Part shown: piece after piece, positions 46,187 through 51,368 of the stretch
Numbering within the stretch: position 1 is the first letter of the stretch
How the letters are laid out: each line of letters opens with the position of its first letter
Origin: Thermorudis peleae
GTDB lineage: Bacteria; Chloroflexota; Chloroflexia; Thermomicrobiales; Thermomicrobiaceae
Length of the DNA: 64,000 bases
Assembly (NCBI RefSeq): GCF_000744775.1
Contig: NZ_JQMP01000004.1
Coordinates: 496,001 to 560,000 of the forward strand
Direction: 5' to 3'
Program-made: the position numbers and the translations under genes
Notes under the pieces: generated by a model
What the model was told of the DNA's origin: nothing
What the model saw: the letters and a program-made list of their open reading frames with translations, nothing else
Database searches by the model: none

Positions 46187-47260
46187 CTAGGTCGTTGTTG
46201 TCCGAGCGGGCACCCGCCGTTGGTTGCTGCCAGCAAGCGCACGCTGGTACAAGTGCAACGCCTCAGCCACACGTCCTGCCCCACGCGCAACACAGGTGAG
46301 CGGATCGTCTGCCAGATACACAGGCATTCGTAGTTCAGCTTGAAGTCGTTTATCGAGGCCAAGCAGCAAGGCACCACCACCAGCCAAGACGATGCCACGT
46401 TCCATAATGTCGGCGATCAATTCTGGTGGCGTTTCTTCAACGCATGTCTTCACAGCTTCAACGATCTGATTAACTGGCCCAGCAATCGCCTCACGAAGCT
46501 CAACACTGCTGACCTCAACTGACTTCGGCAAACCGGTAATCAGATCGCGCCCCCGCAGTACAACCCGGCGCTCTTCTTCAAGCGGATAGGCTGAGCCGGC
46601 AGCAATTTTTGCATTCTCGGCTGTTCGCTCACCGATGATCAGATCATGGTCCCGACGTGCATACTGCATGATCGCCTCATCGATCTCATCACCAGCGACA
46701 CGGAGTGAGCGATTCACGACGATGCCACCAAGCGAGATTACGGCGACTTCCGTTGTGCCGCCACCAATGTCAACGATCATGCTGCCGACAGGCTCGTTGA
46801 TTGGCAAGCCCGCACCAATCGCCGCGGCCATGGGCTCTTCAATCGTATAGGCCTCGCGCGCGCCAGCACTGAGCGCTGCATCCTTCGCCGCACGCTTCTC
46901 AACTTCGGTGACGCCACTTGGAACACCAATGACAACGCGCGGATGAGGAGTGATGAGCTGTTGGGCGTGAACCTTGCGAATGAAGTAGTGCAGCATCATC
47001 TCAACAATGTCAAAGTCGGCAATAACACCATCCTTGAGTGGACGAACAGCGACGATCGTCTCTGGCGTCTTGCCGACCATAGCCTTGGCTTCCACACCAA
47101 CAGCCAAGGCACGCCGCGTCCGCTTATCGACAGCGACGACTGACGGCTCGGAAATAACAATCCCTTTGCCGCGAACGTAGACAAGCGTATTGGCTGTACC
47201 GAGGTCGATGCCCAGATCCCGGCTAAACAATCCAAAGAGTGCACTGAGCGGGCGGATCAT
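46187..47260 (-). CDS. mreB: Rod shape-determining actin homologue MreB
   Basis: A 357-residue actin-fold ATPase. It has LGIDLGTANTLVYVRGKG, PLKDGVIADFDIVEMMLHYFI, VIGVPSGVTEVEKRA, the adenosine-binding MIVDIGGGTTEVAVISLGG and GIVLAGGGALLLGLDKRL. It positions lateral wall synthesis; presence of mreB, mreC, mreD and PBP2 genes in the window suggests rod or elongated cells. The ATG follows GAGGGAGC. A good promoter candidate lies 156-184 bases upstream. Confidence 0.97.
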   Translation of the reverse strand: MIRPLSALFGLFSRDLGIDLGTANTLVYVRGKGIVISEPSVVAVDKRTRRALAVGVEAKAMVGKTPETIVAVRPLKDGVIADFDIVEMMLHYFIRKVHAQQLITPHPRVVIGVPSGVTEVEKRAAKDAALSAGAREAYTIEEPMAAAIGAGLPINEPVGSMIVDIGGGTTEVAVISLGGIVVNRSLRVAGDEIDEAIMQYARRDHDLIIGERTAENAKIAAGSAYPLEEERRVVLRGRDLITGLPKSVEVSSVELREAIAGPVNQIVEAVKTCVEETPPELIADIMERGIVLAGGGALLLGLDKRLQAELRMPVYLADDPLTCVARGAGRVAEALHLYQRALAGSNQRRVPARTTTT

Positions 47261-47627
47261 GCTCCCTCGCCCCTCCCTTGGTTACGCAGGCCGGGCCACT
47301 CACCGTGATTCCTTCCTGACGCGCCTGACGCGCCATACCGCGTTCGGCCATTCCCCAGCACGTTTCCACCGCGTACACTTGCCCGTGGTTGAGCGCCCGG
47401 CGCGCCCACGCCTCGACTTTACCGGAAAATGCCGCGTCCTGCAACACTGCTACTACGGGCTTGAGCAGGATACTCGACAGAGGATGAGCATTTGTGGAAA
47501 CTTTTCAGTGCATGCTTTATCGATGCTGAAACATTCCCACACAAGCTCGCTCTCTTCATTACGTCCTGCGGCTCTATTGGGTGTGGGCAGAGTAATAGAC
47601 ACCATACCAGAATGCGGGAGCAGAGTC
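47261..47627. other. Intergenic region between divergent mreB and lipid kinase genes
   Basis: The 367 bases hold the mreB promoter candidate (47416-47444) and no convincing gene. Reading frames through it into the kinase gene from 47190 lack ribosome sites and resemble no protein. An imperfect dyad with TTTCAG (47503-47508) and CTGAAA (47526-47531) lies in its middle, flanked by TTGTGG and CCACACAAG, and may be a regulator site. No clear promoter for the kinase gene was found. Confidence 0.5.
47416..47444 (-). promoter_or_regulatory. Promoter candidate for the mreB-mreC-murT-gatD transcript
   Basis: On the minus strand, -35 TTGCAG (47439-47444) and -10 TAAAGT (47416-47421) are spaced by exactly 17 bases. 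Transcription would begin near 47409, giving a leader of about 150 bases before mreB. The -35 hexamer equals that of the trxA candidate. Confidence 0.5.
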
Positions 47628-48644
47628 GTGTCACAATCATTGCCTGAGCAACTGCAGCACCAGCGTGCCCACCTCTCTGACGTCGTGGAACAGACCATCT
47701 ATGCCATTATCAACCCTGCAGCCGGGAGTGGACGGGCAGGGCGGACCTGGCCACGCCTACGACACGAACTCACAGCACTTGGGTTCACTGTTCATGACGT
47801 ACTGACCGAAGCCCCGGGCCAGGCAATTCGATTAGCGGAACAACTCGTCACTGCAGGAGCCCGTGAGCTCATTGTTGTCGGTGGCGACGGGACACTCAAC
47901 GAAGTCGTCAACGGGATTATTGATTTCCAAGGGCGACCGCGACGCCGTGATCTCGTTATTACCCCTGTGCCATGTGGTACGGGCCGAGACTTCGCCCGGC
48001 TTTTTGGAATTACGCGACCCGAGCAGCTTGCTTCATTGTTGCTCAACGGCGAGCGATGTCAGGTCGATGTTGGCGTACTCGACTTTCGCACACCTGATGG
48101 CAATCTTGCCCGTCGCTGCTTTGTCAATATGGCGGACATTGGGCTCGGCGCCGAGACAGCGGCCTGGGTCAGCACCTCAACAAAGCGGCTTGGCGGCTTC
48201 CTCAGCTACCTCATCGGAGCGGGCCGCACCATTCTCCGTCACCGAAGTCATCCATTGGAGTTGAGCGTCGATGGCGTGGTCGTCTATCGCGGGCCAGCGA
48301 TGATGGTTGCACTTGCCAACGGCCGTTTCCACGCTGGCGGCATGCGGCTCGCTCCGATGGCATCGGTCTCAGACGGCCGGCTCGAAGTCTTCGTTCTGCG
48401 CGACGTTCCGCGGCGCGAACTGCTCTTTCGTCTCTTACCCGCTGTCTACCGTGGACGTCACGTTGGGCACCCAGCAGTCCAGCATTGGCAGGGGCAAGTC
48501 GTCACAATTCACGCACACGTTCCGCTCCGCATCGAAATGGACGGTGAGCAGCCTGGCACAACCGATGTGACGGCTGGAGTCCTGCACCGAGTACTCACCG
48601 TACGCGTGCCACGCGGTAGCTGTCAACGAGAGCATCCCGTCTAA
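47628..48644 (+). CDS. Diacylglycerol kinase family lipid kinase (YegS/DgkB type)
   Basis: A 338-residue DAGK-catalytic-domain protein. It shows YAIINPAAGSGRAGRTWP, the nucleotide loop ELIVVGGDGTLNEVVNGI, ITPVPCGTGRDFARLFG, and in the C-terminal beta-sandwich FVNMADIGLGAET, MVALANGRFHAGGMRLAPMASVSDGRLEVFV and RIEMDGEQPG. It phosphorylates a lipid such as diacylglycerol or a related long-chain substrate. The frame is open from 47190 but crosses mreB; the GTG at 47628 with GGGAG seven bases upstream gives the family length. It is divergent from mreB. Confidence 0.92.
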   Translation: MSQSLPEQLQHQRAHLSDVVEQTIYAIINPAAGSGRAGRTWPRLRHELTALGFTVHDVLTEAPGQAIRLAEQLVTAGARELIVVGGDGTLNEVVNGIIDFQGRPRRRDLVITPVPCGTGRDFARLFGITRPEQLASLLLNGERCQVDVGVLDFRTPDGNLARRCFVNMADIGLGAETAAWVSTSTKRLGGFLSYLIGAGRTILRHRSHPLELSVDGVVVYRGPAMMVALANGRFHAGGMRLAPMASVSDGRLEVFVLRDVPRRELLFRLLPAVYRGRHVGHPAVQHWQGQVVTIHAHVPLRIEMDGEQPGTTDVTAGVLHRVLTVRVPRGSCQREHPV

Positions 48645-48931: not shown

Positions 48932-50101
48932 GTGGTGATAAGAAGCATGAGTGGCGGAGTTTCAGCGCAGCTCATTGCGTTGAATTTTATTGCGAAGGAT
49001 GAAGGTCCAGGAACGTTTACGATTATTGGCGAGCAAAGTACGCCACACCTGCGCTGGTTCGCTGAAGGGCTGCGAAATGCATTAATCCGCCAGGGGCATG
49101 AATACACTGAGCAACCGATTCCTGACATTCGGCTGGTTCTTAATGTCTTCCCACATGACAAACCAAAGCCATATCGCCGGAAGGCACAGGCGACCTTTGT
49201 CGTTGGCATTACCGAGTTTGCCCAGCGACCAGCTGATATTCTCGTCGCAGGCTATCCGTACCTTCTGTATTCGTTAGCGAACCTTGTTATTCTCCTTGTT
49301 CCAACTGCAGACGGTCAGAGTGTTGAAGCCCGGTTCATTACGCTTGAACGCGGCAACTACGGCATTCCATATGTCCCAGGACAGGATGAGCAATTCTTCG
49401 AGGCGATTTACCAGCGGCTTTATCCGCTCGCCTCTTCGCACCTTGTGATCAACAATGTTTTCAAGACTGACCTTGAACCAGAGTTGTGGAATGGCGATGA
49501 AATTACTGCGCAGATTACGCGCGCTGGCAAGCGCCTCGACGCGATGAACCTCCTCCCAGCTCCCTTCCCAGTCGAGGAGTTTCTCAGCGAGAAAGAGTTG
49601 CGACACGTCCGGCGATTGTATGGCATTGGTGGGCTAAGCTACGGCAACCTGAGTGCTCGCAAAGACCGAACACGTTTCTGGATGAGTGCCAGCGGCGTTG
49701 ATAAGTCCAAGCTAGAAGTAGTCGGGCAAGACATCTTGATGGTTTCAGGTTTCGACCCCACGATCCCAGCGATTATCTTAAGCGTCCCGCCGAACATCAA
49801 ACCGCGTCGCGTTTCCGTTGATGCCATCGAGCATTGGATGATCTACCAGCAGCACCCAGAGATTGGTGCCATTATGCATGTCCATGCTTGGATGGACGGG
49901 ATTCGCTCGACAGAGATTAACTATCCATGCGGGACACTCGAATTGGCTCAGGCTGTCTCGAACCTGCTCGCGCAGGAGCCCGATCCTGGCCATGCGGTGA
50001 TCGGCCTGAAGAATCACGGGGTTACGATCACGGGCGAGAGCTTAGATGAGATCTTTGAACGCGTGGGCGATAAGATTATCCCACAAGTACCGATGACGTA
50101 A
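48932..50101 (+). CDS. Class II aldolase/adducin domain protein with an unrecognised N-terminal domain
   Basis: A 389-residue protein. The C-terminal 190 residues are a class II aldolase domain: GIGGLSYGNLSARKDRTRFW, SASGVDKSKLE, the zinc ligands in AIMHVHAW (HxH) and LKNHGVTITGESLDEIFER. The N-terminal 195 residues (from about ALNFIAKDEGPGTFTIIGEQSTPHLRWFAEGLRNAL-like start to FPVEEFLSEKELR) are mixed alpha/beta and match no family I know. Ordinary class II aldolases have only about 200-220 residues in total. Adducin-type proteins act as aldolases, epimerases or dehydratases on sugar phosphates; which applies here is open. Start choice is uncertain between GTG 48932 (AAGGA upstream) and ATG 48947. 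No operon partner is evident; 287 bases separate it from the lipid kinase gene and hold no clear gene. Confidence 0.85.
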   Translation: MVIRSMSGGVSAQLIALNFIAKDEGPGTFTIIGEQSTPHLRWFAEGLRNALIRQGHEYTEQPIPDIRLVLNVFPHDKPKPYRRKAQATFVVGITEFAQRPADILVAGYPYLLYSLANLVILLVPTADGQSVEARFITLERGNYGIPYVPGQDEQFFEAIYQRLYPLASSHLVINNVFKTDLEPELWNGDEITAQITRAGKRLDAMNLLPAPFPVEEFLSEKELRHVRRLYGIGGLSYGNLSARKDRTRFWMSASGVDKSKLEVVGQDILMVSGFDPTIPAIILSVPPNIKPRRVSVDAIEHWMIYQQHPEIGAIMHVHAWMDGIRSTEINYPCGTLELAQAVSNLLAQEPDPGHAVIGLKNHGVTITGESLDEIFERVGDKIIPQVPMT

Positions 50102-50106
50102 TCGTG

Positions 50107-50143
50107 CAGCGGCTGCCAGCTGCTTAGGCGCCGGCAGCCGCTG
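50107..50143. terminator. Hairpin between convergent aldolase and dehydrogenase genes
   Basis: CAGCGGCTGCC (50107-50117) pairs perfectly over 11 bases with GGCAGCCGCTG (50133-50143), with a 15-base loop. It starts five bases after the aldolase-type gene stop and reaches into the last codons of the convergent dehydrogenase gene. The strong GC stem fits a shared terminator, but neither side has a U tract. Confidence 0.55.
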
Positions 50144-51368
50144 GGTCAAAGGCAAATACCGCTTTGATGACGCCCGCACTGCCCTTTTGCGTGACAGTCG
50201 CAAGGGCAGTGCGATAGTTTTTCAGATCAAATCGGTGCGTGACGAGCGATCCAAGCTCAACCTTGCGCTCGGCCATCAACTTCAGGGCAAGCTCCATCGT
50301 ATGCCCGCGCCAGTTTCCGACCTGCTCATGGGCATATGCCATCTCGCCGCAAACGTGCAACTCATGTAGCCAAACCGGTGTCCAATCGACGCCATGCGGC
50401 GTTGAAGCCAAACCAACTAAGACGACAGTGCCACCAGCACGCGTGAGCCGGAATGCGTCATCAACGGTGCGGCTTGATCCGACGCAATCGAAGACGAGAT
50501 CAGCACCACCTTGTACGAGCGGTCGGCCGATGAGCGGATGGAGGATGGCTGCACCAGTAAGACGAGCAACCTGCCGATAAAGATCATCAGGATCACGAGC
50601 GCGGAGCACAATATCCGCCCCTAAACGCTCCGCTTCCTTCGCCTGGAACGGATACCGTGCCGTAATGAGGATGCGCGCCTTCGATCCCAACGCTCGGAGC
50701 GCGGCAACCGTGAGCAAGCCAATGATGCCTGCACCAAGGACGAGCACTGTTGCCGTATCGTCTGGCCAATGGCGCAAGACAGCATGCAACGCCACGGCAA
50801 ACGGCTCGGCCAATACCGCTTCTTCATCTGAAAGGACATCAGGCACAGGCAGCACTTGCGATTGGTGCGCGACAAAGAGCGGGCTCCAACTCCCACCAGT
50901 GTCACGGCAAAAGCCGATCATCGTTCCAGCGGAAATCGCTCCCTCGTGGAACCGCAGGCAGAGATTGGTTTCACCGCGCGCACAGTTCGGGCAACGGTCA
51001 CTGAAGCCGCGAGGCTCACAGCTCAACACCGGATTCACAACGACGCGCTGCCCTGGACGCACCGCCGTCACGCTTGCCCCGCATTCGGTCACGATGCCAA
51101 CGTTCTCGTGCCCCAGGGTAAATGGCAGCGAGGTAATGGCCGACATAACCGGGCTTTGATGGAGCATGATCGTACCAAGATCACTGCCGCAGATGCCGCC
51201 GTAACGGGTTGCAATCCGTACCCAAGAGGAAGCAGGCAACGATGGCGGGGGGACATCGCGAAGTTGCAGGCACGACCACGACGCCCAGTATGCTCGGCGT
51301 CGAATGCGTCCAAGGACTTTTGTCAGTCCGTAACGCGGCAGACTGTCCGTAAACTGTAACGCAAGCAT
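50124..51368 (-). CDS. Zinc-dependent medium-chain alcohol dehydrogenase family protein
   Basis: A 414-residue MDR oxidoreductase. The catalytic zinc region shows GGICGSDLGTI and TLGHENVGIVTE; the structural zinc loop has Cys residues in CPNCARGETNLC but is preceded by an unusual insertion (NPVLSCEPRGFSDR). The NAD(P)-binding Rossmann motif is VLVLGAGIIGLLTVAALRALG. It oxidises or reduces an alcohol, polyol or aldehyde; substrate unknown. An N-terminal part of about 45 residues before the first catalytic segment is longer than usual. It lies three bases after the D-aminoacylase-like gene, so both are probably co-transcribed. Confidence 0.88.
   Translation of the reverse strand: MLALQFTDSLPRYGLTKVLGRIRRRAYWASWSCLQLRDVPPPSLPASSWVRIATRYGGICGSDLGTIMLHQSPVMSAITSLPFTLGHENVGIVTECGASVTAVRPGQRVVVNPVLSCEPRGFSDRCPNCARGETNLCLRFHEGAISAGTMIGFCRDTGGSWSPLFVAHQSQVLPVPDVLSDEEAVLAEPFAVALHAVLRHWPDDTATVLVLGAGIIGLLTVAALRALGSKARILITARYPFQAKEAERLGADIVLRARDPDDLYRQVARLTGAAILHPLIGRPLVQGGADLVFDCVGSSRTVDDAFRLTRAGGTVVLVGLASTPHGVDWTPVWLHELHVCGEMAYAHEQVGNWRGHTMELALKLMAERKVELGSLVTHRFDLKNYRTALATVTQKGSAGVIKAVFAFDPAAAGA

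Follow-up and report, generated by a model that had tools for sequence, protein, structure and literature searches.

The window, the whole stretch of 64,000 nucleotides analysed here, comes from contig NZ_JQMP01000004.1 of Thermorudis peleae. Between positions 48932 and 50101 of its plus strand lies a single uninterrupted frame of 389 codons, running from a GTG to a stop, which encodes a two-domain protein with a class II aldolase-fold domain at its carboxy-terminus. The features of the locus are:

47190-48644, plus strand: lipid kinase of the YegS/Rv2252/BmrU family (TIGR00147, 156 bits; cut-off 118.65)
48932-50101, plus strand: class II aldolase-fold two-domain protein of 389 amino acids (384 when started at the ATG at 48947)
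49010-49546, plus strand: amino-terminal alpha/beta domain of no known family, residues 27-205 (its own AlphaFold model, pLDDT 92; conservation in 120 sequences)
49547-50101, plus strand: carboxy-terminal class II aldolase domain of the FucA fold (Pfam, Foldseek and HMMER alignments; conservation in 120 sequences)
50124-51368, minus strand: zinc MDR alcohol dehydrogenase of the polyol/ketose-reductase type, 414 amino acids (NCBIfam)

An AGGTGG-like putative ribosome-binding site overlaps the annotated GTG at 48932 and precedes the ATG at 48947. We consider the ATG the more plausible start, which would give a protein of 384 residues; homologues from outside the Thermomicrobiales start near residue 26 of the window protein. 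In the upstream gene, the frame becomes kinase-like only from about residue 167, so its true start is probably located downstream of 47190.

The carboxy-terminal domain matches Pfam Aldolase_II (PF00596) with 58.3 bits, against a cut-off of 22.2, the best stretch being residues 230-319. A reading made from the sequence only, before the present analysis, had proposed a class II aldolase domain with intact features, and these are indeed all found: GNLSAR at residues 238-243, SASGVDKSKLE at 252-262, HVH at 316-318 and NHG at 361-363. An AlphaFold model of the window protein, calculated from 53 homologues, has a mean pLDDT of 88. Foldseek searches with the carboxy-terminal domain of this model returned 2opi, 2irp and 1jdi at E values of about 1e-7, identifying the fold as that of FucA, AraD and aq_1979; the TM-scores by target with the FucA and AraD entries are around 0.5-0.58. 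The matches also include NovR, TqaM, YgbL and pyruvic oxime dioxygenase.

In the alignment of 120 family sequences, N239, G255, K258, S295, D297, E300, H301, H316 and H318 are invariant, and H362 is present in 119, the remaining row having a gap at this position. By alignment with class II enzymes, H316, H318 and H362 are the predicted metal ligands, and N239, S254, G255 and S295 are candidate residues of a phosphate pocket. We take the pocket of FucA to be formed by N29, T43, G44 and S71; the residue-by-residue match leans on the alignments together with background on FucA. D297, an Asp in all 120 sequences, aligns with E73 of FucA, which we take to be the catalytic residue of that enzyme. 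The segment between the HxH and GT motifs, presumably the bearer of the usual catalytic acid, looks roughly 25-30 residues shorter in the HMMER alignments than in solved relatives. The usual acid is probably lost with this shortening, and the protein may therefore catalyse something other than an aldol reaction.

With FucA, itself a PF00596 enzyme, the window protein shares the fold of the carboxy-terminal domain, the three histidine ligands, the motifs GN(L/V)S and NHG, and the greater part of the phosphate pocket. It differs in having D297 for E73, in the apparently shorter HxH-GT segment, in the extra amino-terminal domain of about 180 residues and, judging from the alignment and from family background, in a shorter carboxy-terminal tail. 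Its score with the NCBIfam equivalog model of FucA is 21.2 bits, where 250 are needed. For all 53 of 53 members, the top named NCBIfam model is that of MtnB, the methylthioribulose-1-phosphate dehydratase, and the SASG..K loop is similar; compared to MtnB, however, the family has Asp for Glu, genes of an MtnB-type pathway were not recognised among its recurring neighbours, and the score with TIGR03328 stays at 40.8 bits (cut-off 137). AraD, the L-ribulose-5-phosphate 4-epimerase represented by fold match 1jdi, also has an Asp at the position of FucA E73, but arabinose genes were not recognised near the window gene and TIGR00760 yields 18.2 bits for a cut-off of 389. Membership of MtnB, AraD or FucA is thus ruled out by the NCBIfam cut-offs, and none of these names is applicable. 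NovR, TqaM and pyruvic oxime dioxygenase share the fold and perform other metal chemistry; sequence similarity to them is weak, and we know of no such extra amino-terminal domain in any of the three.

The amino-terminal part had been described as 195 residues matching no recognised family. Its extent needs correction, as it is about 205 residues long, with a conserved domain of about 180 of these (26-205); its lack of a recognisable family stood up in all searches with this part alone, in which no known family matched convincingly. Residues 1-205 gave zero Pfam matches at E ≤ 10, and among 53 family members no Pfam family of this region was common to most, the widest match being to 9 of the 53 (best E 7e-4). 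A PDB sequence search gave a best E of only 0.067, and a BFVD fold search nothing at E ≤ 0.001 (best E 2.4e-3). Foldseek searches of the PDB with the domain model also gave nothing convincing: a relationship to KaiC and other P-loop proteins had the best E, 5.6e-4, yet a TM-score of just 0.34, and one to a flavodoxin-like entry (1qbg; TM-score 0.48, E 7e-3, 7.1 Å rmsd) was not accepted. Within the domain, R83, Y108, T137, E139, G141, P165 and N175 are invariant or nearly so in the 120 sequences, arguing against a mere tail. A separate occurrence of the domain, for which a survey had been suggested, was not found when its profile was run over 61 genomes of the class (one chance-level match, E 0.05). 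The best reading of this domain is that of an obligate, hitherto undescribed module, which may, as the sequence-only reading suggested, determine the substrate or act as a sensor or partner enzyme.

The two-part protein is real and ancient. It is encoded in 27 of 61 relatives searched, with internal stops in none of the 27, and homologues are encoded on 112 genome contigs, nearly all as one unbroken frame. Chloroflexota/Thermomicrobiota, Bacillota and Actinomycetota all have full-length homologues, with 50-81% identity over the two domains; these homologues refute a frameshift or other artefact as the origin of the fusion, a possibility that the sequence-only reading had raised against its own proposal. 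The organism titles of the matches include Thermomicrobium, Sphaerobacter and Thermalbibacter, many Bacillaceae, Paenibacillaceae and Thermoactinomycetaceae, and uncultured Actinomycetota. In all full-length relatives examined, from three phyla, the two domains are kept together, and the profile is covered from end to end by the matches, save for broken contigs or assemblies. The distribution is patchy: in phylum-wide samples, the fusion was present in 17 of 301 genomes of Chloroflexota, 20 of 398 of the phylum of Alkalihalophilus pseudofirmus OF4 and 4 of 246 of the actinobacterial phylum. In a tree of 111 rows, Bacillota and Actinomycetota are each confined to one side of a branch, with supports of 91 and 62, respectively.

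Several individual copies deserve mention. The Parageobacillus thermantarcticus copy (locus L051, 5992-7083) consists of two adjacent open reading frames, while the Paenibacillus apiarius genome contains the fusion protein twice. The copies in two records titled Bifidobacterium breve MAG are near-identical to those of uncultured lake actinobacteria, and this bin label is probably wrong. Identity of the fusion with B. subtilis YtlQ was a guess for which the literature search provided no support; the same search, limited to open-licence papers and hence weak evidence, found no published description of the fusion.

Contrary to the earlier statement that the gene stands alone, it has a relevant neighbour on either side: the lipid-kinase gene, likewise on the plus strand, stops 287 bp before it, and the dehydrogenase gene converges on it from downstream, the two tails being 22 bp apart. 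Near family members in other phyla, both neighbours are found again. Relatives of the dehydrogenase in the PDB are a ketose reductase (1e3j), a sorbitol dehydrogenase (1pl6) and a galactitol-1-phosphate dehydrogenase (4a2c). Clustering of the neighbours at 80 loci placed the kinase at 50 and the dehydrogenase at 45. Within 5 kb, at 119 loci, the dehydrogenase was found 63 times and the lipid kinase 58 times, as well as an MGDG-synthase-like glycosyltransferase (17), SDR (12), alpha/beta hydrolase (10), PlsC (10), phosphodiesterase-like (9), GT4 (9) and Lgt (8) proteins; these neighbour counts take in closely related genomes and are not all independent. In Bacillota, the nearby genes include those for PlsC, the MGDG-synthase-like glycosyltransferase, the alpha/beta hydrolase and Lgt.

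Of 60 close dehydrogenase-aldolase pairs, most are on one strand with gaps of less than 50 bp, and at four loci the two genes share a 4 bp overlap, as in translationally coupled operons. Top-tier matches to a dehydrogenase profile (E < 1e-145), which is partly derived from aldolase neighbours so that its scores are biased, are present in 11 of the 301 Chloroflexota genomes; 10 of the 11 also have the aldolase, always within about 300 bp. The sole exception is a genome without the aldolase, in which the top-tier dehydrogenase is on a 7.2 kb contig. Dehydrogenases related more remotely to this one (E 1e-96 to 1e-130) are present in genomes without the aldolase. At three loci of other Chloroflexota such a distant relative is located, operon-like, beside a fatty-acyl-reductase/HAD-like gene, and at two of these the group also contains acyltransferase and LarA-like genes. 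A genome has only 0-5 lipid-kinase genes, yet in 10 of 18 genomes the aldolase gene has one of them no more than a few kb away. The arrangement of the genes varies among Chloroflexota, Bacillaceae, Paenibacillus and Thermoactinomycetaceae, and the linkage is not universal, since most members from Actinomycetota have neither neighbour. At loci without the zinc dehydrogenase, other oxidoreductase genes adjoin the aldolase gene, namely an SDR gene at four and an iron alcohol dehydrogenase gene at one; SDR genes being abundant, a single such adjacency is weak evidence.

Our best reading, to which we give somewhat less than an even chance, is that the protein is an active metal-dependent lyase, the substrate of which is a phosphorylated polyol or ketose, either lipid-linked or feeding glycerolipid metabolism, and that this substrate is made by the oxidoreductase and the kinase as its partners. 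We predict that the protein, as a member of the class II aldolase superfamily, is competent for metal-dependent catalysis. Its aldolase-fold domain would bind the phosphorylated keto or polyol substrate, with the phosphate on N239, S254, G255 and S295, the metal on H316, H318 and H362, and D297 acting as acid/base or fourth ligand. It would make or break a carbon-carbon bond, or possibly catalyse an epimerisation or dehydration instead, while the adjacent NAD(P)-dependent alcohol/ketone oxidoreductase would make or remove the keto group. The amino-terminal domain may shape the site and contact lipid or a partner. The recurrent lipid kinase and the glycerolipid genes nearby make it most likely that the substrate is lipid-linked or feeds into glycerolipids. 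What the analysis supports is an active metal enzyme that is coupled to an alcohol/ketone oxidoreductase and, through gene linkage, a link to lipid metabolism. The architecture of two domains, the conserved active site and the linkage of the genes are shown by computation; the phosphate on the substrate, the lipid link, the aldol-type chemistry and the role of the amino-terminal domain are inferred. The resemblance of the dehydrogenase to enzymes of soluble polyols counts against this link; a lipid substrate is thus not required.

Taken further, this resemblance suggests plain catabolism of a soluble polyol or sugar phosphate, in which the dehydrogenase would oxidise the polyol (phosphate) to a ketose phosphate for the aldolase to cleave, and the lipid genes would be incidental. 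Class II aldolases usually act on small sugar phosphates, their typical substrates, and the kinship with ketose reductase, sorbitol and galactitol-1-phosphate dehydrogenases fits. However, transporter, sugar-kinase and sugar-regulator families are not recurrent in the neighbourhood clusters, and the lipid-kinase linkage recurs, differently arranged, in separate lineages. We regard soluble catabolism as less probable than the lipid-linked lyase.

Non-aldol chemistry, i.e. decarboxylation, epimerisation, dehydration or metal-dependent oxygenation, appears unlikely. It is suggested by the Foldseek matches to AraD, NovR, TqaM, YgbL and pyruvic oxime dioxygenase, by the replacement of the FucA Glu by Asp, as in AraD, and by the MtnB dehydratases being the nearest named NCBIfam models; but those relatives are all distant, far under the family cut-offs, and the kept phosphate pocket favours a phosphorylated substrate.

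A still more doubtful proposal gives the family a role in making or remodelling long-chain alkane-1,2-diol lipids, for instance through an aldol reaction that joins a fatty aldehyde to a C3 phosphate, with reduction to follow. Long-chain 1,2-diols form the basis of the membranes of Thermomicrobium roseum, and their biosynthesis is unresolved (PMC2615216); for Roseiflexus castenholzii, alkane-1,2-diol glycosides are named in the title of an earlier paper (van der Meer 2002, in the reference list of PMC10150655). The aldolase gene is present in all sampled genomes of the family of the window organism and in both genomes of group f8, and absent from the sampled genomes of group f6. Both f8 genomes have fused pufL-M frames, which we take to be typical of Roseiflexus; in the f6 group, pufL and pufM are separate (two genomes checked). 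Against a role in diol synthesis, the same genes are found in many Bacillota, a phylum in which we know of no long-chain 1,2-diols; the product of an aldol reaction would also require further deoxygenation, and the correlation is a mere taxon correlation over few taxa. It is therefore only as a long shot that we put forward the aldolase and oxidoreductase as the missing carbon-carbon bond-forming step for alkane-1,2-diol membrane lipids, or for a related polyol lipid of Bacillota, with the amino-terminal domain as a new lipid-handling fold. That two reading frames were joined by a frameshift, giving an artefact or pseudogene, has next to no probability, the same architecture being unbroken in three phyla with invariant active-site residues.

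The family is widespread and can now be annotated just as class II aldolase, although it combines an intact metal and phosphate site with a domain unrecognised by the libraries searched. Gene order ties it to an alcohol dehydrogenase and a lipid kinase in several phyla, predicting a reaction, as yet uncharacterised, with phosphorylated lipids or polyols as substrates, and the lineages that carry it include bacteria with unusual membranes of unsettled biosynthesis.
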